A DNA stretch of 64,000 bases from Roseateles depolymerans (GTDB lineage: Bacteria; Pseudomonadota; Gammaproteobacteria; Burkholderiales; Burkholderiaceae_C): positions 620,001 to 684,000 of the forward strand of contig NZ_QUMT01000003.1 of assembly GCF_003387155.1 (NCBI RefSeq). The letters are read 5' to 3'. The notes under the pieces were generated by a model, which was given only the letters and a program-made list of their open reading frames with translations, was not told the DNA's origin and did no database searches. The position numbers were made by a program, and so were the translations under genes. This document shows positions 2-18,619 of the stretch, in pieces (position 1 is the first letter of the stretch; each line of letters opens with the position of its first letter).

Positions 2-1429
2 TTTGCCGCCGCGGTGAAGGCCGCCAACACCCTGTGCGGCGCCAACGGCAGCACCTATGTGGCCGCCTGCGACGACGCCTATTACGCCGGCTCCGGCCTG
101 CGCAATGACGAGCTGGCCGGCGCCTCGCTGGACCTGCGCCTGGCGGACCACACCACCTGGAAGACCACCGTCTACCACCACCACAACAAGGGGGCAGGCC
201 TGTGGTTCACGCCCTACCAGGCCTCGCCGGACGGCACGCCCGTGTCGGTGCGCACCACCGAATACAGCATCCACCGCTGGGGCGTGGTCTCCAACGCGGA
301 AATGGAGCTGGGCGACCATCTGGTCAAGGCCGGCGTCTGGTTCGAGGACAACGACTTCGACCAGGCCCGCCGCTTCTACGCCGCCAGCCCCAATGCCATT
401 CCCAGCGTCTACGAGTTCCCGAGCAATCCGTTCCTGACGCAGTGGCAATACGCGTTCAACACCAAGACCACCCAGTTCTCCCTGTCCGACACCTGGACCC
501 TGACCCGCGACCTGACGCTGGGCGCCGGCTTCAAGTCGCTGCGGGTGGCCACCGACGGCCAGCTCGAGCGCGGCACCGGCCTGCCGTCCGGCAAGATCAC
601 GGCGAAGAAGGGCTTCCTGCCGCAACTGGGCGTGAACTGGCGCCTGACCGAGAGCAACGAGCTCTACGCCACCGTGGCCAAGAACATGCGCGCCTTCCAG
701 GCCGCAGGCACCGGCACCTCGCCCTATGCCACCACCGCGGCTGGTTTCGAGGCCATCAAGGGTTCGCTCAAGCCGGAAACCTCCGACACCTACGAAGCCG
801 GCTGGCGGACCCGGGGTCGCGGTTATGAGGGCTCGGTCAGCGCCTACCTGGTCAACTTCCATGACCGGCTGCTGAGCGTGCAGCAGGGCTCCGGCATCCA
901 GGGCAATCCGGTCGTGCTGTCCAACGTCGGCAATGTGCGGGCCACCGGCATGGAAGGCTCCTTGTCCTTCCGCCTGAGCAGCACCGTGAGCTGGTACAAC
1001 AGCCTGAGCCTGTCCAAGGCCGAGTACCGGGACGATGTGGTCAGCAACAACGTGACCGTCGCCATCAAGGGCAAGCGGGTGACGGATGCGCCGGACACGA
1101 TGTTCAAGTCGCAGCTGGGTTATGACGACGGCGCGCTGTTCGGCACGCTGGGGGTGGACTACCTGTCCAAGCGCTACTACACCTACACCAACGACAACTC
1201 GGTGCCGGACCGCACGCTGGTGAACCTCACCGCCGGCTATCGCATGAAGAACGTGGGCCTGCTGCGCGAGCTCAGCCTGCAGGGCAGTGTGAACAACCTG
1301 CTGGACAAGCACTACATCTCCACCATCGGCAGCAACGGCTTCACCAACAGCGACCCCACCGGCACCTACGCCACGCTGCTGCCTGGTGCGCCGCGCCAGG
1401 TCTTCGTGACCCTCACCGGCAAGTTCTGA
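2..1429 (+). CDS. TonB-dependent outer-membrane receptor, C-terminal part (5' end outside window)
   Basis: The frame is open from base 2, so only the last 475 residues are present. They show the alternating aromatic/polar pattern of a TonB-dependent receptor beta-barrel, with the usual late motif NNLLDKHY and a C-terminal phenylalanine (LTGKF) that acts as the barrel-assembly signal. The plug and TonB box are missing because of the window edge. Receptors of this family carry scarce solutes across the outer membrane using TonB energy. One base separates it from the PhoD-like phosphatase gene, and an ABC importer follows, so it probably supplies the periplasmic step of that uptake route. The substrate cannot be read from the barrel alone. 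Confidence 0.9.
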   Translation, partial: FAAAVKAANTLCGANGSTYVAACDDAYYAGSGLRNDELAGASLDLRLADHTTWKTTVYHHHNKGAGLWFTPYQASPDGTPVSVRTTEYSIHRWGVVSNAEMELGDHLVKAGVWFEDNDFDQARRFYAASPNAIPSVYEFPSNPFLTQWQYAFNTKTTQFSLSDTWTLTRDLTLGAGFKSLRVATDGQLERGTGLPSGKITAKKGFLPQLGVNWRLTESNELYATVAKNMRAFQAAGTGTSPYATTAAGFEAIKGSLKPETSDTYEAGWRTRGRGYEGSVSAYLVNFHDRLLSVQQGSGIQGNPVVLSNVGNVRATGMEGSLSFRLSSTVSWYNSLSLSKAEYRDDVVSNNVTVAIKGKRVTDAPDTMFKSQLGYDDGALFGTLGVDYLSKRYYTYTNDNSVPDRTLVNLTAGYRMKNVGLLRELSLQGSVNNLLDKHYISTIGSNGFTNSDPTGTYATLLPGAPRQVFVTLTGKF

Positions 1430-1430
1430 C

Positions 1431-2696
1431 ATGGACGGCAAGCCTCTAGGCACGGGGGAGGACCGCCTTCCCCTCAGCAGGCGCCGCCTGATGCTGGCGG
1501 GCTCTTTGGCCGCCAGCCCGCTGGCGGCGGTGGGGCAGGCGATGGCTGCGCCAGCGCCGGCGGTGGCCGTGGGCGCGGCCTCGGGGGCCTCCGGGGCATC
1601 GGGGGCATCGGCGGCATCGGGTTCGCAGCCCGGTGGCCCCGCTGCCGCCGGTCGCACCCGCATGCGCATCGCCTTCGGCTCGTGCGCGAAGCAAAGCAAG
1701 CCGCAGCCGATCTGGCAGGCGATTCGCGCCGCGCAGCCGGACCTGTTCATCTTCCTGGGCGACAACCTCTATGCCGACGCCCGGGACGAAGCCACGCTGC
1801 GCCAGCGGTATGCCGAGTTCATGGCCGTCGAGCCGCTGCAGGCTTTCCGTCGCGACACGCCGCACATCGCCATCTGGGACGACCATGATTTCGGCGATGA
1901 CGACGAAGGCGCGGACTATCCGCTCAAGCGTCTGTCCCAGCAGCTGTTCTGCGATGCATGGAATGAGCCGGCGGACTCCCCCCGCCGCCGCAATGACGGC
2001 ATCTACACCCACTCCCACTACGAGGTGGCGGGCCGCCGCGTGCAGGTCATCCTGCCCGACCTGCGCTTCAACCGCAGCGCGCTGACCAACGACCCGCGGC
2101 TCAAGTCGAGTTACGGGGCCATGGTGCTGCGGGCCAAGCTCAGCGGCCAACCGATGACCGGCTGGTATGTGCCCGACCCCTCCCCCAGCGCCACCATGCT
2201 GGGCGAGGCGCAGTGGCGCTGGCTGGAAGCCTGTCTGCGGGAGCCGGCGGACATCCGCCTGATCGGCTCCAGCGTCCAGTTCGCCGCCGAGGGCAGCGGC
2301 TGGGAATGCTGGGCAAATTTTCCGCATGAGCGGGAGCGGCTGATCCGCCTCATCCAGGAGACCGGCGCCAACGGCGTGGTCTTCCTCAGCGGGGACATGC
2401 ACTACGCGGAGATGTCGCGCCTGGACGTGCCGGACGCCTATCCGCTCTGGGACGCCACCTCCAGCGGGCTGACCGAGGTCTGGAACATCCCCACGCCCAA
2501 CCGCAATCGCCAGTCCGAGGTGCTGGCCGCCTGCAACTTCGGCCTGCTCGACCTCGAAGCCGACGGCGCCGACCTGCAGCTGCGCTTCTCGCTGTGTGAC
2601 CAGCAGGGAGAGCCCCGGCTCACCCGGACGCTGGCCTTGTCCTCCCTGCGCCTGCCCACCGCCGGGCCTGCGCCTTCCACCGATCGCCTGCCATGA
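1431..2696 (+). CDS. PhoD-like alkaline phosphatase D family metallophosphoesterase, exported
   Basis: 421 residues. The N-terminus has a Tat-like signal (SRRRLMLAG) followed by an Ala/Gly/Ser-rich spacer at about residues 45-68. The catalytic domain carries metallophosphatase motifs: RIAFGSCAKQ, FLGDNLYAD, IWDDHDFGDDD and FLSGDMHYAEM, which hold the Asp, Asn and His metal ligands of PhoD-like enzymes. Family members are exported phosphomonoesterases or phosphodiesterases, often made during phosphate limitation. The gene starts 1 nt after the receptor stop and its own stop overlaps the next start (ATGA), so it belongs to the uptake operon. It may release phosphate or trim an organophosphorus compound before import. 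Family assignment is firm; the exact substrate is unknown. Confidence 0.85.
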   Translation: MDGKPLGTGEDRLPLSRRRLMLAGSLAASPLAAVGQAMAAPAPAVAVGAASGASGASGASAASGSQPGGPAAAGRTRMRIAFGSCAKQSKPQPIWQAIRAAQPDLFIFLGDNLYADARDEATLRQRYAEFMAVEPLQAFRRDTPHIAIWDDHDFGDDDEGADYPLKRLSQQLFCDAWNEPADSPRRRNDGIYTHSHYEVAGRRVQVILPDLRFNRSALTNDPRLKSSYGAMVLRAKLSGQPMTGWYVPDPSPSATMLGEAQWRWLEACLREPADIRLIGSSVQFAAEGSGWECWANFPHERERLIRLIQETGANGVVFLSGDMHYAEMSRLDVPDAYPLWDATSSGLTEVWNIPTPNRNRQSEVLAACNFGLLDLEADGADLQLRFSLCDQQGEPRLTRTLALSSLRLPTAGPAPSTDRLP

Positions 2697-3790
2697 GCGC
2701 CATGCTGTCCCGTCGCCACCTGCTCCATGCGGCGCCTGCCCTGCTGGGCGGCGCCTTGCCCTCCCTGCTGCGGGCCCAGCCCGGCGAGGCCACGTCGGCC
2801 TCGCCCGCGCTGCAGGCGCTGATCGCCGGCGCGCGGCAGGAGGGACGCATCCACAGCCTGGGCATGCCGGACGACTGGGCCAACTGGCGTGCGGTGTGGG
2901 CGGATCTGCAGCGCCTGTACGGACTGGTGCATGTCGACACCGACATGAGCAGCGCAGAAGAGATCGCCAAGATGGAAGCCGAGCGCAGCAATGCAACGGC
3001 CGACATCGGCGACGTGGGCTTCGAATTCGGCCCCATTGCCAAGGCGCGAGGCCTCACGCGGCCCTACAAGCCCTCCACCTGGGCGCAGGTGCCGGACTGG
3101 GCCAAGGATGCCGACGGCCACTGGGCGCTGGCCTACACTGGCACGCTGGCCTTCGCGGTGAACCGCCGCCGCGTCAAGGACATTCCGCGCAGCTGGCAGG
3201 CCCTGCTGGCCAGCGATGCGCGGGTGCTGGTCGGCGAGGTGGGGCGCGCTGCGCAGTCCAATGCCGCCGTGCTGGCCGCGGCCATCGCCCTGGGTGGAGA
3301 CGAGACCCGCCTGGCGCCGGCCCTGGCCGCCTTCGCCCGGCTGTCGGCGCAGCGCCGGCTGGTGCATGTGAACGGCAGTCCGGCACTGATGGAACGCGCA
3401 GAGGCGGATGTCTTCCTGCTCTGGGACTTCAATGCCCTGAGCTACCGCAAGAAGCTGCCCAATGCGGCCGACTATGAGGTGCTGATCCCGTCGGACGGCT
3501 CGGTCACCAGCGGCTACACGACGCTGCTGAACCGTTATGCGCCGCATCCGAACGCGGCGCAACTGACCCGCGAATTCATCTTCAGCGATGCCGGCCAACT
3601 GCACCTGGCGCGCGGCCATGCACGCCCCATCCGCATCGACCATCTCAGCCTGCCGGCCGACGTGACCGCCACGCTGCTGCCTGCCGCGCAATATGCCAAG
3701 GCCCGCGCGCTAAAACCCACGGTCTGGACCGAGGAAGTGAAGAAGCTGCCCCGTGCCTGGCAACGTGAGGTGCTGGGAGCCGGGCGGTGA
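2693..3790 (+). CDS. ABC transporter periplasmic substrate-binding protein (family 1, Fe3+/aminoethylphosphonate/polyamine-like)
   Basis: 365 residues with an export signal containing a Tat-like SRRHLL motif before a hydrophobic stretch. The mature protein has the layout of family-1 solute-binding proteins: an early two-lobe start (ALIAGARQEGRIHSLGMPDD), a central GYTTLLNRYAPHPNAAQLT segment and a C-terminal segment typical of Fe3+- and 2-aminoethylphosphonate-type receptors. The start codon overlaps the PhoD stop (ATGA) and the stop overlaps the next start (GTGA), indicating translational coupling. It should deliver solute to the two permeases and ATPase downstream. The neighbouring phosphatase and phosphodiesterase favour an organophosphorus ligand over iron; that is inference. 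Confidence 0.8.
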   Translation: MSAMLSRRHLLHAAPALLGGALPSLLRAQPGEATSASPALQALIAGARQEGRIHSLGMPDDWANWRAVWADLQRLYGLVHVDTDMSSAEEIAKMEAERSNATADIGDVGFEFGPIAKARGLTRPYKPSTWAQVPDWAKDADGHWALAYTGTLAFAVNRRRVKDIPRSWQALLASDARVLVGEVGRAAQSNAAVLAAAIALGGDETRLAPALAAFARLSAQRRLVHVNGSPALMERAEADVFLLWDFNALSYRKKLPNAADYEVLIPSDGSVTSGYTTLLNRYAPHPNAAQLTREFIFSDAGQLHLARGHARPIRIDHLSLPADVTATLLPAAQYAKARALKPTVWTEEVKKLPRAWQREVLGAGR

Positions 3791-4707
3791 ACGCGTCTTC
3801 CGCGGAGCTGCCGCGCCGTTTGGTGCTGCTGCTGGCCGATGGCCTGAGGGCCGACACGGCGCGGGACTACATGGGCTATCTGCAGGCGCTGCAGGAAGCG
3901 GGCCGCGCGCGCGCCTGCGAGCTGCGCTGCGAGCTGCCCAGCCTGTCACGACCGCTCTATGCCACGGTCATCAACGGGGAGCCGCCGCTGGTGCACGGCA
4001 TCCTGGGCAACGGACAGGCCGGGCAGGCTCTGCCGCATCATCTGTTCCAGCGTCTGCACGCCCAGGGACTCACCAGCGCGGTAGCGGCCTATCACTGGTT
4101 CCATGAGCTGCTCAGCGGCGAGGTGTTTGATCCGCTGCGCCATCGCGACGCGCTCCCGCCGGGCACCGGCATCGTCGGCGCCCGCTGGTATTGGGAAGAC
4201 GACTATCCGGACAGCCATCTGCTGGCGGATGCCGAGTCGCTGCGGCAGCAGCATGCGCCGTCGCTGCTGTTCATTCATCCGATGGGCCCGGACCTGGCCG
4301 GCCATCAGCATGGGGCGGAGTCGCCCGCCTATGCCATGAGTGCTCGCAAGCTCGACATGCTGCTGTCGCAACTGCTGCCCCGCTGGCATGCGGCCGGCTA
4401 CGACCTGCTGCTCACCAGCGACCACGGCATGAATGCGGACCGCATGCATGGTGGCCCCTTGCCGGTGGAGCGGCTCGTGCCGCTGATCTGGGTGCCTCAC
4501 CCGGCCGGCGAGGCTGGCGAGAGCGGCTCAAGCGGCCCTGGCGCCGGTAGCGCCGGTACCGCCGGTAGCAGCGATAGCACCGACATCACCGACAGCACCG
4601 AGATCGCCACGCACTGGGACCCGCTGGCAATTCCCCTGCCGCAGCGCCAGACCGACATCGCCGGCTGGGTCCTGGACTACCTCGGCGCGGCAGACGGCCC
4701 GCGCTGA
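3787..4707 (+). CDS. Alkaline phosphatase superfamily phosphodiesterase/phosphonate hydrolase-like protein, cytoplasmic
   Basis: 306 residues from a GTG start that overlaps the previous stop. The fold motifs of the nucleotide pyrophosphatase/phosphonoacetate hydrolase group are present: LLADGLRAD (metal ligand Asp18), PSLSRP (candidate nucleophile Ser54 where many relatives have Thr), NGEPPLVHGILGN, PDLAGHQHG (Asp169, His173) and SDHGMN (Asp212, His213). There is no signal peptide, so it should act on imported substrate in the cytoplasm. A Ser/Thr/Asp/Gly-rich low-complexity insert at about residues 240-272 interrupts the C-terminal part. Its place between the binding protein and the permeases ties it to the importer. 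The cleaved bond (phosphodiester, phosphonate or pyrophosphate) cannot be decided. Confidence 0.8.
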   Translation: MNASSAELPRRLVLLLADGLRADTARDYMGYLQALQEAGRARACELRCELPSLSRPLYATVINGEPPLVHGILGNGQAGQALPHHLFQRLHAQGLTSAVAAYHWFHELLSGEVFDPLRHRDALPPGTGIVGARWYWEDDYPDSHLLADAESLRQQHAPSLLFIHPMGPDLAGHQHGAESPAYAMSARKLDMLLSQLLPRWHAAGYDLLLTSDHGMNADRMHGGPLPVERLVPLIWVPHPAGEAGESGSSGPGAGSAGTAGSSDSTDITDSTEIATHWDPLAIPLPQRQTDIAGWVLDYLGAADGPR

Positions 4708-4715
4708 TCCGCATC

Positions 4716-5555
4716 ATGTTCACTCGTCGCGCCGCCGTGGGATGGGCCCTGCCGCTGATGCTGCTGATGGGCGGCGCCCTGGTGCTGCCGTTTGTATGGC
4801 GCACCGGGCTGCTGCTGTCGGACTGTGCGCAGCAGGAGGCCGGCTGCGCCCTGGCCGAACTGGTCGCGGACGATGAATACCTGCGCGCCGCCTGGAACAC
4901 CTGGTGGCTGTCGACGGTCTCGGCCCTGCTGGGCCTGCTGCTGGGACTGGGCAGCGCCGTGGCATTGCGACAGCGTCCCGGCGCGCGACCGGCCCTCTCG
5001 GCGCTGGCGAGCCTGGGCGCCAACCTGTCCGGCGTGCCGCTGGCCATGGCGCTGATGGTGCTGCTGGGGGCGCAGGGCGTGATCCCTCTGGCGGCGGACG
5101 CGATGGGCTGGCCGCTGCGGCTGGATCTGCAGGGCATGGGCGGCCTGCTGCTGGCTTACGTCTGCTTCCAGGCGCCGCTGGCGACGCTGCTGCTGGTGGC
5201 ACCGGTGGGCCTGATGGACCGCTCGCTGCAGGAAGCTGCCGCGACGCTGGGCGCGCCGGACGGACTCTTCTGGCGACGCGTCGGTCTGCCGCTGCTGCTG
5301 CCCAGCCTGGTGGAGACCTTCGGCCTGCTGTTCGCCAATGCCGCGGCGGCCTTTGCCACGCCCTTTGCCTTGTCCGGCACGTCGGCTCAGGTGCTGGCGG
5401 TGCGCATGGCGTCGCTGGTCAGCGGCGACATCTTCGCCCAGCCGGAGCTATCGGCGCTGCTGGCGCTGCTGCTGTTCAGCATGATGGCGGTGATGCTGGC
5501 GGCCAGCCGGTGGGCCGCCGCCCGCTGCCGCCGTCTGCTGGAGGGCACGTCATGA
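4716..5555 (+). CDS. ABC transporter permease, inner-membrane subunit 1
   Basis: 279 residues with about six hydrophobic helices and the cytoplasmic EAA loop (EAAATLGAP) that docks the ATPase. It is the usual size for one half of a binding-protein-dependent importer of the Fe3+/polyamine/aminoethylphosphonate type. It begins 8 nt after the phosphodiesterase stop and its stop overlaps the start of the second permease (ATGA). It forms the heterodimeric channel with that protein. Substrate identity must come from the binding protein. Confidence 0.88.
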   Translation: MFTRRAAVGWALPLMLLMGGALVLPFVWRTGLLLSDCAQQEAGCALAELVADDEYLRAAWNTWWLSTVSALLGLLLGLGSAVALRQRPGARPALSALASLGANLSGVPLAMALMVLLGAQGVIPLAADAMGWPLRLDLQGMGGLLLAYVCFQAPLATLLLVAPVGLMDRSLQEAAATLGAPDGLFWRRVGLPLLLPSLVETFGLLFANAAAAFATPFALSGTSAQVLAVRMASLVSGDIFAQPELSALLALLLFSMMAVMLAASRWAAARCRRLLEGTS

Positions 5556-6466
5556 GCAGGACGCCGGACAGGACCCTGCGCCGATGGAGGGGGCCGTCCT
5601 GGTCTTTCCTGGCGCTGATCATCCTGCTGGTGCTGATCCTGGTGCCGATGATCACGCTGCTGCTGTATGGCCTGAGCGAGCGTTGGGACCAGCACCTGTG
5701 GCCCGAGCACCCGACGCTGCGCTGGCTCACCGAAGCGGCGACGGACCCGCGGGTGCAGAGCGCCGCCGCCCGGACCGCGGCCTACGCACTGGCCAGCGCC
5801 GTGCTGGCCCTGGCCTGCGGCGCGCTGGCGACGGTGCCCGCCGTGCTTGGCGCGCAGCTGGCAGGCGCGGGTTCCGGCGGTGGGCGTCGCAGCGGGCGTC
5901 GCGGTGGACGCGCGCATGGGGAAGGCGGCGGGCTGCTGCGCCTGCTGGACGCCCTGGCGTTGCTGCCCTTTGCGATCGCGCCGGTGGTGATCGCCATCAG
6001 CGCGCTGGAGCTGTTTGTGGGGCGTCTGGGCGCCTGGCTGCCCACGCCGCTGGTGTACGCGGCGGTGGTCGCGCCCACCCTGTTTCCGCTGGTGCACAAG
6101 ACGCTGCAGTCGGCCCTGCATCAGCTGCAGGCCGCCGCGCTGGTGGAAGCCGGACGCACGCTCGGCGCCAGCGATGCGCATCTGCTGCGCCGCGTGTTGC
6201 TGCCGCTGCTGGCACCGGCCCTGCTGGCGGCGCTGATGCTGGCCTGGGTCACGGCGGCCATGGAATTTGCCATCGCCAACCTGCTGCTGGGCGGCGAGCA
6301 GGAACTGCTGCAACCGCTGATGAACAGCCTGCGCAACGTCAACGGTCACCAGGCGGCGGCCTTGATGACGCTGGTGCTGGTCGGCATGGCCGCATTGATG
6401 GCGCTGGCGGGCCTGCTCACTTCCTTTCAACGCACGCGCGCCGGCGCGTCTCGCTCCACGACATGA
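5552..6466 (+). CDS. ABC transporter permease, inner-membrane subunit 2
   Basis: 304 residues from the ATG that overlaps the previous stop codon; the same frame is open further upstream but that part lies inside the first permease. It has about six membrane helices and an EAA-type loop (EAGRTLGAS). An unusual Gly/Arg-rich insert at about residues 110-130 sits between helices where relatives have a short loop; it is probably cytoplasmic and disordered. It pairs with the first permease. Its stop overlaps the ATPase start, keeping the chain of coupled starts intact. Confidence 0.87.
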   Translation: MSRTPDRTLRRWRGPSWSFLALIILLVLILVPMITLLLYGLSERWDQHLWPEHPTLRWLTEAATDPRVQSAAARTAAYALASAVLALACGALATVPAVLGAQLAGAGSGGGRRSGRRGGRAHGEGGGLLRLLDALALLPFAIAPVVIAISALELFVGRLGAWLPTPLVYAAVVAPTLFPLVHKTLQSALHQLQAAALVEAGRTLGASDAHLLRRVLLPLLAPALLAALMLAWVTAAMEFAIANLLLGGEQELLQPLMNSLRNVNGHQAAALMTLVLVGMAALMALAGLLTSFQRTRAGASRSTT

Positions 6467-7602
6467 CACTGATGGCCGATACGCCGCACCAGGCGCCCTC
6501 CACATCCCCCGATGCCGACATGCAGTTGCACGTGGACGAGGCCTGCCTGAGCCTGGGAGGTCGCACGGTGCTGGACGCCGTGAGCCTGCGCCTGGCGCCG
6601 GGAGAGGTGGTCGCGCTGCTGGGTCCCTCGGGCTGCGGCAAGACCAGCCTGCTGCGCAGCATCGCCGGCCTGCAGCGGCTGGACGGGGGACGCATCCACA
6701 TCGCCGGGCGCGACGTCAGCGACTGGCCGGCCCAGGCGCGGGAGATCGGCATGATGTTCCAGCACTACGCGCTGTTTCCCAACCTGAGCGTGCAGGAGAA
6801 CATCGGTTTCGGCCTGCGGGCCCGGGGCGCGCAGCCGCAGGCCGTGGCCGCGCGCACGCAGGCCTTGCTGGCGATGGTCGATCTGCAGGCCCTGGCGTCG
6901 CGCCTGCCGGCGGCGCTGTCCGGCGGGCAACGGCAGCGGGTCGCGCTGGCCCGCGCGCTGGCGCCGCAGCCGCGACTGCTGCTGATGGATGAGCCGTTCT
7001 CGGCCCTCGATGAGCACTTCCGGCTGCCGCTGCGGCGGCAGTTCCGTCAGCTGCAACGGGCCCTGGGGCAGTCCTGCCTGATCGTCACCCATGACCGGGA
7101 AGAGGCCTTCGAACTGGCGGACCGGGTGGCCGTGATGCTGGGGGGTCGGATCGTGCAGTGCGCGTCGCCGCGTACCTTGTGGCGGGAGCCGGCGACGGTG
7201 GCGGTGGCGGACTTCCTGGGCGTGTTCAATCGCCTGGACGCTCGCGGGCTGGAGGGCGCGTGGCGACGGGAGAGCGGGCAGTGGCTGGCGCCCATCGAGG
7301 CGATGCAATGGCTGCCCGCAGGCATCCCGTGGCCGGAGGATGCACTGCGCCTGCAGGCACGGCTGCAGGCGGTGTATTGGGGGCAGCAGCGGGTGGCGAT
7401 GGAGCTGCTGCTGGAGGGATGCGAACGGTGGGGCGACGCTGGCGTTGCGTCAGCTTCAACGGCAACGGCAGCGTCAGCGGCCGCGTCTCAGCATCCGCGT
7501 CCCCTCACCGTCTGGTGCGACCATCATGCATCGTTGCCTGAACCCGGGCAGGTGCTGCGGCTGGCAGTGCCGGCCTCGGCGCTATGCTGGTTGCCCGATT
7601 AG
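6463..7602 (+). CDS. ABC transporter ATP-binding protein (Fe3+/polyamine/phosphonate-type importer)
   Basis: 379 residues starting at the ATGA overlap with permease 2. Walker A is GPSGCGKTS, the Q-loop region is MMFQHYALFP, the signature is LSGGQRQRVALARAL, and Walker B is LLLMDEPFSALD, followed by the switch histidine in IVTHDREEA. This order is typical of PotA/FbpC-like ATPases. The C-terminal 120 residues form a regulatory TOBE-like extension that contains an Ala/Ser/Thr low-complexity insert near residue 330. It powers the importer encoded just upstream and closes the operon; the next gene is convergent. Confidence 0.92.
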   Translation: MTLMADTPHQAPSTSPDADMQLHVDEACLSLGGRTVLDAVSLRLAPGEVVALLGPSGCGKTSLLRSIAGLQRLDGGRIHIAGRDVSDWPAQAREIGMMFQHYALFPNLSVQENIGFGLRARGAQPQAVAARTQALLAMVDLQALASRLPAALSGGQRQRVALARALAPQPRLLLMDEPFSALDEHFRLPLRRQFRQLQRALGQSCLIVTHDREEAFELADRVAVMLGGRIVQCASPRTLWREPATVAVADFLGVFNRLDARGLEGAWRRESGQWLAPIEAMQWLPAGIPWPEDALRLQARLQAVYWGQQRVAMELLLEGCERWGDAGVASASTATAASAAASQHPRPLTVWCDHHASLPEPGQVLRLAVPASALCWLPD

Positions 7603-17114: not shown

Positions 17115-17467
17115 GCGGGTTCTCCATCGCGACCTATCGCGAACCATCGCGAATCGGGATCTGAATTCGACAGGGGTTGAATCGGCAGCCAGCAGCCTTC
17201 AGGCCGCCATGCGCCCCATTAGACAGGAGCCCCTACTCCCGCAAACGGGCCCGAAGCTTAAAGGCTGTTGAAAGCCCGTGCCGATGCTTTCAGTTTTGAC
17301 TTCCATGCAAAGATGGCCTTCGATCGGGCGCTGTCCAACCCCCTGGCTGCAACATTCGCACAACACCTGGAGAGCGCTCCCCAGAAACCGCAGCTGCAAC
17401 GACATGTTTCTGAGGCATGCCCTCCCTAGAATCGCGCCCGCCTCCCAGCCTTCGTGATTGCCAGAGC
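17115..17467. other. Divergent intergenic region between maeB and pstS
   Basis: 353 nt without a supportable gene. It holds the GGAGAACC ribosome-binding site for maeB at its left edge and a TAGAAT hexamer at 17427-17432 that could be the -10 of pstS. I looked for the paired CTGTCAT-type repeats of a Pho box and found no convincing copy. Confidence 0.5.
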
Positions 17468-18619
17468 ATGCCTTTCAAGATTTCCTGTCTGTCCTTGTCC
17501 GTTCCCGGCGCGTGCAGTGCTGCGACCACCACATCCACGCCCGCCCGTGCCCGCACGGCCCGCCAGGGCGGGCTCCGTCCCCTCCTGCTGGGCGCCCTGA
17601 TGACGCTCACGGTGACGCTCTCAGGCAGCGCATTCGCGCAGGTCAAGGGCGCGGGGGCCTCGTTCCCCTCCCTGGTCTACGGCCGCTGGGCCGTCGCCTA
17701 CGAAAAGAGCAGCGGCGGCCAGCCCGTGACCTACAAGGCCACCGGCTCGGGCGATGGCGTAAAGCGCATCACCGCCCGCGAGGTGCAATTCGGCGGCAGT
17801 GATTCGCCGCTGTCCGCGGAAGAGCTGGCCAAGCGCCATCTGGTGCAGATTCCGATGCTGGTGGGCGGCATCGTGCCGGTGGTGCAGTTGCCCAGCGTTC
17901 CGGAAGGCCGCCTGCAACTGAGCGGCGAGGTGCTCGCCGACCTGATGGCCGGGCGCATCCGTCAATGGAACGATCCGCGCATCGCAGCGCTGAACCCGGG
18001 CCTTCCCCTGCCCGCCCTGGCCGTGCGGCGCGTGGTGCGGGCGGACAAGTCCGGCACGTCCGAAGGCTTCACCCGCTACCTGAGCGAGGTCTCGCCGGAA
18101 TTCGCGGCGGAGATCGGCGTGAATGCCCAGCCCAAGTGGCCCGGCGAGGTGGAACGGGCCGAAGGCAACGACGGCATGGTCAAGGCCCTGAAGGCAGCGC
18201 CCGGCTCGATCGCCTATGTCAGCTATGACCGGGTGCAGGCGGAGCGGCTCAATGCGGTGAAGCTGCGCAATGCCGCTGGTCAATGGGTGAGCGCCACCGA
18301 AGCGGGCTTCCGGGCCGCCATCGCCGAAAGCGATCTGTCGCGTCGTGGCGATGACCTGGCGTCCCTGATGAACCGGCCCGGCGCCAACAGCTGGCCCATC
18401 ACCATGACCAGTTTCATCCTGATCGACGCCACGCCGCCCAAGGGAGAGGAAGCCTCCCCGGTGATGCGCTTCCTCTACTGGTGCTTCATGCACGGCGACG
18501 ACCTGACCCGCGGCACCGGCTTTGCACCGCTGCCGCTGACGCTTCAGTCGAAGCTGGCCGCTCGCTTTGGCGCCGTGAAGGCGCAGGACGGCAAAGCGCC
18601 GGTCTATCAGGCGATGTAA
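17468..18619 (+). CDS. PstS-like phosphate ABC transporter substrate-binding protein
   Basis: 383 residues from the ATG at 17468, which lies behind a TAGAAT -10-like box; an earlier in-frame ATG at 17417 would precede that box. A long n-region leads into the signal peptide core LLLGALMTLTVTLSGSAFA. The mature protein starts VKGAGASFPS and has the phosphate-binding loops TYKATGSGDG, FGGSDSPLS and ADKSGTSEGFTRYL, with later VERAEGNDGMV. It binds phosphate in the periplasm. No pstC, pstA, pstB or phoU is adjacent, so it is an orphan binding protein or is served by a transporter encoded elsewhere. It converges with pgk. Confidence 0.85.
   Translation: MPFKISCLSLSVPGACSAATTTSTPARARTARQGGLRPLLLGALMTLTVTLSGSAFAQVKGAGASFPSLVYGRWAVAYEKSSGGQPVTYKATGSGDGVKRITAREVQFGGSDSPLSAEELAKRHLVQIPMLVGGIVPVVQLPSVPEGRLQLSGEVLADLMAGRIRQWNDPRIAALNPGLPLPALAVRRVVRADKSGTSEGFTRYLSEVSPEFAAEIGVNAQPKWPGEVERAEGNDGMVKALKAAPGSIAYVSYDRVQAERLNAVKLRNAAGQWVSATEAGFRAAIAESDLSRRGDDLASLMNRPGANSWPITMTSFILIDATPPKGEEASPVMRFLYWCFMHGDDLTRGTGFAPLPLTLQSKLAARFGAVKAQDGKAPVYQAM

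Follow-up and report, generated by a model that had tools for sequence, protein, structure and literature searches.

The first genes in a 64,000-nucleotide stretch of Roseateles depolymerans DNA (the window; G000:C3:620001-684000, with gene coordinates counted from window base 1) encode a TonB-dependent outer-membrane receptor (TBDR), an exported PhoD-like metallophosphoesterase, a periplasmic substrate-binding protein (SBP), a putative phosphodiesterase (PDE), which is an NPP-like hydrolase of the alkaline-phosphatase superfamily, two ATP-binding cassette (ABC) permeases and an ABC ATPase, and raise the question of which compound these proteins would take up and cleave. A preliminary description had proposed an organophosphorus uptake-and-cleavage operon. 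We find that the operon exists as described, is conserved and forms a coherent unit, and that its core is an importer of a known type. We further propose, with moderate confidence, that it serves to scavenge an organic phosphoester. The likeliest candidate is a small phosphodiester, for example the head group of a deacylated lipid, as in glycerophosphoethanolamine.

The operon and its five-gene core are conserved

The seven genes had been described as running head to tail with chained start/stop overlaps, and all four 4-base overlaps are indeed present (ATGA at 2693, GTGA at 3787, ATGA at 5552 and ATGA at 6463). The junctions measure, in order, +1, -4, -4, +8, -4 and -4, the 1-base gap separating the TBDR and PhoD-like genes and the 8-base gap those of the PDE and permease 1. 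The upstream stretch L004 was read for the 5′ part of the receptor gene and for a divergent DeoR-family regulator, both of which lie outside the window. Profile searches confirmed the families of TBDR, PhoD-like protein, SBP, PDE, permease 2 and ATPase over the Pfam cut-offs; the Pfam scan of permease 1 gave no match (Table 1).

We refer to SBP, PDE, the two permeases and the ATPase as the five-gene core, to which the eight-gene order adds the divergent DeoR gene, TBDR and PhoD. A related-locus search returned 22 loci, mostly from Roseateles, Mitsuaria, Pelomonas and Burkholderiales metagenome-assembled genomes (MAGs). Given that a simple first open reading frame (ORF) caller failed in GC-rich loci, operon genes were mapped by tblastn instead. 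The full order DeoR, TBDR, PhoD, SBP, PDE, permease, permease, ATPase recurs in 16/22 of these loci and the core in 20/22, so that the arrangement is not due to chance. DeoR is missing from L021 and L022, and DeoR and PhoD from L013, while three loci are contig ends: L012, in which the contig begins within the SBP gene, and L019 and L026, two contigs of one MAG that end inside the operon.

To a wider extent, the PDE was matched in 8/299 sampled genomes of the family, including the window genome and one weak match (G159), and the six remaining matches all have the full core. In the phylum, 44/398 sampled genomes, own included, matched at E 1e-10 or better. Of the 40 loci fetched, 6 came from the family search and 34 from the 43 phylum matches outside the window genome. 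The full core is present in 30 of the 40, four of these genomes being already among the 22 related loci; the PDE was found without core partners in L073, L091, L093, L101 and L106, and beside another importer in L087 and L102-L105. GTDB kinship assigns L074-L092 and L094-L100 to the class of the window and places L093 and L101-L106 elsewhere in the phylum, in other classes. Loci from named organisms are those of P. aeruginosa (L027), E. faecium (L028) and Halomonas (L029). The pairwise-identity matrices of the five core proteins correlate at 0.91-0.98 over 49 loci, values to which shared host ancestry adds; the five proteins diverge together. Two loci of the same genus with common flanks, L091 and L083, show the whole core in one and only the PDE in the other, which suggests that the importer was lost in one of the pair.

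Table 1. Genes of the operon with their positions and profile matches. Positions are those of the window unless preceded by L004.
Feature	Position	Strand	Profile evidence
TBDR, C-terminal part	2-1429	+	PF00593 138.1 bits
Full TBDR gene, 753 aa	L004:9168-11429 (start ~9168)		plug PF07715 36.8 bits, barrel PF00593 131.7 bits
Exported PhoD-like metallophosphoesterase	1431-2696	+	PF09423 84 bits (cut-off 27)
Periplasmic SBP, AepS/PhnS-like class	2693-3790	+	PF13343 71.5 bits
PDE, NPP-like hydrolase of the alkaline-phosphatase superfamily, apparently cytosolic	3787-4707	+	PF01663 66.8 bits (cut-off 23)
ABC permease 1	4716-5555	+	PotC, PhnU2 and PhnU-type NCBIfam matches, all below cut-off
ABC permease 2	5552-6466	+	PF00528 38.1 bits (cut-off 26.4)
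ABC ATPase	6463-7602	+	PF00005 126.7 bits; nearest NCBIfam PhnT2 305.6 bits, below cut-off 457.7
DeoR-family regulator, divergent from TBDR	L004:8143-8994	-	PF00455 138.6 bits, PF08220 61.1 bits

Permease 2 contains a Gly/Arg-rich stretch near window 5868-5935.

The hydrolase has a predicted NPP-type active site

Ser54 and Asp169, the two residues of the hydrolase that the preliminary description had singled out, are located where it placed them, and both are invariant, together with D18, N75, H173, D212, H213 and H221, in 61/61 distinct PDE homologues. In an alignment with Xac NPP, all of these residues except H221 fall on positions that we take to be catalytic or metal-binding in that enzyme, and H221 is probably the last metal ligand. 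As judged by alignment, the PDE would thus combine the two-metal site, Ser/Thr nucleophile and conserved Asn of the NPP type. A Foldseek search with an AlphaFold model of the PDE returned NPP3, phosphonoacetate hydrolase (PhnA), ENPP6, which is a choline-specific glycerophosphodiesterase, and Xac NPP as fold matches, with TM-scores to NPPs of about 0.43-0.51; the model (pLDDT 78.5, several active-site loops below 50) was used for fold matching only. The PDE shares PF01663, the nucleophile and metal-ligand pattern and the fold with the NPP/ENPP phosphodiesterases, and differs from them in its length (306 aa), in having no apparent export signal and in sharing an operon with an importer. A Gly/Ser/Ala/Thr-rich low-complexity insertion at about residues 238-278 (window 4500-4620) is the longest among eight alignment rows compared.

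A phosphonoacetate hydrolase is not favored by these data. The PDE scores 20.1 bits with the PhnA model, far below the cut-off of 407.55, and no lysine is conserved at the 97% level or above in 55 core homologues. Phosphonoacetate hydrolase is described with leaving-group lysines (PMC10574752), and the lack of a conserved lysine in the PDE therefore speaks against an enzyme of that type.

The preliminary description had the PhoD-like enzyme exported and the hydrolase, free of a signal, acting on imported molecules. Both proposals are plausible. The PhoD-like N-terminus carries a twin-arginine motif (SRRRLML), and RR is present near the N-terminus in 24/24 homologue rows (three of them from duplicate genomes), 22 of which show the strict RRx pattern. 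In the PDE, a signal peptide is not apparent by eye, and the protein is presumably cytosolic. With start codons assigned by a simple rule, most PDE homologues begin directly at the first catalytic strand, which in part of the Roseateles group is preceded by an Ala/Ser/Pro-rich tail of up to ~60 residues. When export signals were scored by hydrophobicity, the PDE reached 0.86, the PhoD-like protein 1.78 and the SBP 1.21, with 9/65 PDE homologues above 1.6; this measure discriminates poorly and is too crude to prove that the PDE has no signal.

The core is an importer of the AepSTU type

The core probably matches AepSTU of Pseudomonas putida BIRD-1 (PPUBIRD1_3890-3895), a comparison made by gene order, locus-tag spacing and Pfam class. 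In both, a PF13343 SBP is encoded together with permeases and an ATPase, forming an importer of the same class, and the spacing of the tags PPUBIRD1_3890, 3891 and 3895 agrees with Pseudomonas-type loci, in which the genes run GntR, SBP, PDE, permease, permease, ATPase. The window operon differs in having DeoR where AepSTU has GntR; moreover, P. aeruginosa and most AepSTU-related loci lack the TonB receptor and PhoD and carry a HAD gene at the end. The Salmonella-type importer PhnSTUV has the broad class of SBP, ATPase and permease in common with the window operon, whose proteins match the PhnS, PhnT, PhnU and PhnV models only below cut-off (for the SBP, TIGR03227 and NF011620 at 40.4 of 395.3 and 42.9 of 310 bits). 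An AlphaFold model of the SBP was poor (mean pLDDT 43.9) and was set aside.

Relatives of the core appear in phosphate-starvation proteomes, among them PA3250, which we take to be the P. aeruginosa binding protein of this type. PA3250 is in the phosphate-starvation exoproteome list of P. aeruginosa (PMC4899797), and PPUBIRD1_3890 (GntR) and 3895 (ABC ATPase) are up under phosphate depletion and undetected in a phoBR mutant (PMC5082522). Less favorably, a P. putida proteome lists PP1726 as strongly lower in one limitation comparison, which may be read in either direction (PMC3325844). AepS itself is PPUBIRD1_3891, assigned to pfam13343 (PMC8316502), and the word phosphodiesterase is absent from the main text of that paper. 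The PDE linked to the importer is not named in the excerpts consulted.

Some homologues of the receptor lie beside phosphoesterase genes

With an E threshold of 1e-120 and no more than two candidates scored in any genome, receptor homologues were found in 15/398 genomes, own included, and 14/16 non-self places were fetched. A phosphoesterase gene lies directly downstream of the receptor in 5/14 of these places, of the PF01663 type in L146 and L148 and of the PhoD type in L150, L152 and L154, one of which has two PhoD genes. In a genome of another class (L150:6137-9707), the same type of receptor and the same small PhoD type (49%) form a two-gene unit without the ABC core. Elsewhere, the receptor lies near a GDSL lipase and a deacetylase (L147) or a penicillin amidase (L153). 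The PhoD-like protein of the window has no match to the PhoD_N domain and reaches 20.9 bits with the classical PhoD model NF058638 (cut-off 1000).

Flavobacterium PUS loci are comparable in that a TonB-type transporter is clustered with phosphoesterases and inner-membrane organophosphorus transporters, and they are induced by phosphate depletion (PMC8115612). They use a SusC/SusD pair (PusCD, with phosphatases and diesterases), whereas the eight proteins of the window operon include no SusD match. Our literature search found no described case of a TonB and phosphodiester operon. The earlier statement that no described system has exactly this composition stands for the full gene set, within the literature searched, and missed that the ABC core is of the AepSTU type and that the outer-membrane logic resembles PUS, as well as the regulator, which lies outside the window. 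What is new here is the full eight-gene form, the AepSTU-type core importer being already known.

The phosphatase-type partner of the core differs by lineage

A divergent GntR/UTRA regulator leads 24 fetched full-core loci and a HAD-IB gene ends 22/24 of them, being missing from L082 and L083, as it is from the named Halomonas locus. Nine of the GntR regulators were scanned and are PhnR-like, with 247-289 bits for TIGR03337 and none over the cut-off of 296.75. The HAD proteins score over HAD-IB subfamily cut-offs and are nearest to histidinol-phosphatase models, below the cut-offs of the latter; the window genome has a 37% homologue elsewhere (C1:936860). Enterococcus plasmids account for 179/199 plasmid records matched by the PDE. 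One of them, from E. faecium, was read, and there the core adjoins a divergent PHP protein, with 303.8 bits for PRK07329 (cut-off 303; a model named hypothetical protein) and a score below the hisJ-family cut-off. The phosphatase-type partner is thus PhoD in Roseateles relatives, usually HAD-IB in the GntR-led loci of other gammaproteobacteria and PHP on the E. faecium plasmid, and what stays constant is the coupling of a PDE to an importer.

In L087 (4009-8820, - strand), a PDE and HAD pair is followed by an SBP_bac_5 oligopeptide-type importer instead of the AepSTU type. The PDE of L102-L105, 25-29% identical to that of the window, lies downstream of an Opp-type importer, possibly forming another uptake-and-cleavage system. 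Since PDE homologues stand beside this unrelated importer type, uptake followed by cleavage may be a pattern that recurs.

PHO-box-like elements precede the GntR-led cores

PHO-box-like sites were scored out of 14 positions of the consensus as we assume it to be, with upstream regions of genes from the simple ORF caller as controls. A match of at least 11/14 is present in 22/26 GntR/SBP intergenic regions vs 12/353 control regions (p = 7.6e-16, which overstates the independence of related loci). In Roseateles relatives, at least 10/14 positions match in 14/17 loci vs 25/207 controls, these loci being close relatives in which the core bases differ from the PHO box. Their conserved promoter element, (T/C)TGTCGT-NNNN-(T/C)TGTCGT, has the PHO-box spacing with a changed core, and could equally be a DeoR operator. 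Across the window genome, the PHO-box-like pattern occurs at 4 places, the operon itself accounting for one, vs 2 control matches; at the two of the other three places for which ORFs were listed, phosphate genes were not seen, so that this count calibrates nothing. Upstream of one pstS of this genome the score is only 10, and the consensus is therefore a weak tool here.

The window also encodes a second PstS-like phosphate-binding protein at 17417-18619 (+; TIGR00975 283.9 bits, over cut-off), which adjoins a phosphoglycerate kinase gene on the opposite strand; a higher-scoring pstS is on contig C2.

Which compound is imported?

The proposal of a phosphodiester has to be weighed against a number of contrary observations, which we give here with the alternatives that they favor. 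The sole published substrate of the core importer is 2-aminoethylphosphonate (AEP or 2AEP), and no diester (PMC8316502). In P. putida, AepSTU is a functional auxiliary importer of 2AEP: an aepXVW aepP aepSTU triple mutant is unable to use it as sole phosphorus source, and the single aepSTU mutant is unaffected (PMC8316502). Hence the operon could serve the uptake of AEP or another phosphonate, the NPP-like enzyme being a C-P hydrolase or a helper, and both the PhnR-like scores of the regulators of non-Burkholderiales cassettes and the presence of PhnW and PhnX over cut-off in G359 and G577, the two genomes with such cassettes that were tested, agree with it. We consider this quite unlikely. 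PhnW, PhnX and PhnJ are not over cut-off in the window genome, in a search limited to these three among the phosphonate routes, which makes AEP an unlikely substrate. Among seven Burkholderiales cassette genomes, PhnW is found in two (G238 and G067), PhnX in three (G288, G238 and G067) and PhnJ in none, so that the operon exists where the tested AEP routes are absent. A P. putida phnWX mutant is unable to grow on AEP (PMC9311074), and the PDE, as shown above, is far from PhnA and without its kind of conserved lysine. The phosphonate option of the preliminary description is weakened accordingly.

A phosphomonoester importer, for a sugar phosphate or glycerol phosphate, is unlikely as well. Here the PDE would be a cytosolic phosphomonoesterase and a regulator of the DeoR/GlpR type would sense sugar phosphate. 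The regulator indeed belongs to the DeoR family, with a GlpR as its best NCBIfam model (169 of 300 bits), and the weak PDB matches of the P. aeruginosa SBP homologue include 4r72-4r75, presumably sugar-phosphate binders, and 6wce (pyridoxal-phosphate binding), besides PhnS 4r6y; 4r72-4r75 and 6wce are not matches of the window SBP. Against this, members of PF01663 are chiefly diesterases, and loci in which a separate HAD phosphatase follows the core would have no need of a second monoesterase.

The best PDB match of the window SBP is 5t1p (E 3.4e-121), which we take to be a C. jejuni protein of the cj0727-cj0732 operon, one of the closest known systems. That operon is listed among those without assigned function (PMC7176700), and cj0730 is iron-responsive in two papers (PMC7176700, PMC4491227). 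The eight weaker PDB matches of the SBP (7f6e group, E 8e-7 to 2e-5) all carry iron-binding names, a result for which we gave more weight to iron uptake and less to a phosphodiester. The receptor, for its part, has a siderophore subfamily as best NCBIfam model (107.9 bits, below the cut-off of 223.5), and three of its homologues (L156-L158) lie in a conserved neighborhood with a citrate transporter. An operon for an iron chelate, e.g., ferric citrate, with a siderophore-type receptor and an iron-binding-type importer, is nevertheless very unlikely in our estimation. FbpA-type iron binders use an adjacent tyrosine pair, which is absent from the window SBP and from 54/55 SBP homologue rows, the exception being that of E. 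faecium; furthermore, the phosphoesterases would be without a role, and the P. putida neighbors PPUBIRD1_3890 and 3895 respond to phosphate depletion (PMC5082522).

Observations on expression, on the receptor and on the enzyme also count against the phosphodiester proposal. AepS is reported to be constitutively made (PMC8316502), and PPUBIRD1_3891, there named PhnD3, is up in the phoBR mutant also, its exoproteome level being lower in the mutant (PMC5082522). The 11-bp-spaced repeat of Roseateles is TTGTCGT and not CTGTCAT, so that phosphate control of its operon is unproven. In 9/14 places a search beside the receptor gave no phosphoesterase, the neighbors in L149, L151, L155 and L159 being compared with the query proteins only. 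Finally, the diesterase activity of the PDE is predicted from PF01663 and the fold, and PF01663 also holds phosphonoacetate hydrolase.

A model for phosphoester uptake and cleavage

The organophosphorus role proposed for the operon is supported by the growth on an organophosphorus compound in which AepSTU takes part, by the relatives in phosphate-starvation proteomes and by the phosphatase-type enzymes that flank the core in each of the lineages examined. In the model that we propose, the TonB receptor would carry the compound, or a larger molecule from which it derives, through the outer membrane, beyond which the PhoD-like enzyme, exported by the twin-arginine route, would trim it. The AepSTU-type SBP would then capture the remaining (amino)alkyl phosphodiester for entry through the ABC importer, and the signal-free PDE would cleave it in the cytoplasm via Ser54 at the two-metal site. 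The product would be dephosphorylated or used, in other gammaproteobacteria by the HAD phosphatase. The gene order, families and catalytic residues of the operon are observed; the substrate, the direction, the order of steps and the cytosolic location of the PDE are those that appear most probable to us.

A bolder extension, which we hold only tentatively and think rather doubtful, is that AepSTU has been mis-cast. Its true cargo would be an (amino)alkyl phosphodiester cut after import by the neighboring cytosolic NPP-like enzyme, AEP being only a mimic of phosphoethanolamine; the Burkholderiales operon would be the proteobacterial counterpart of PUS across outer membrane, periplasm and cytoplasm, with PhoD, HAD or PHP recruited in each lineage.

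Phosphodiesters are common among organic phosphorus compounds, and if the model is true they would be imported whole and cut in the cytoplasm by a route that surveys of secreted phosphatases miss. The model would also make it possible to test directly whether an importer published for AEP serves another substrate, and would offer a starting point for related operons that have no assigned function.

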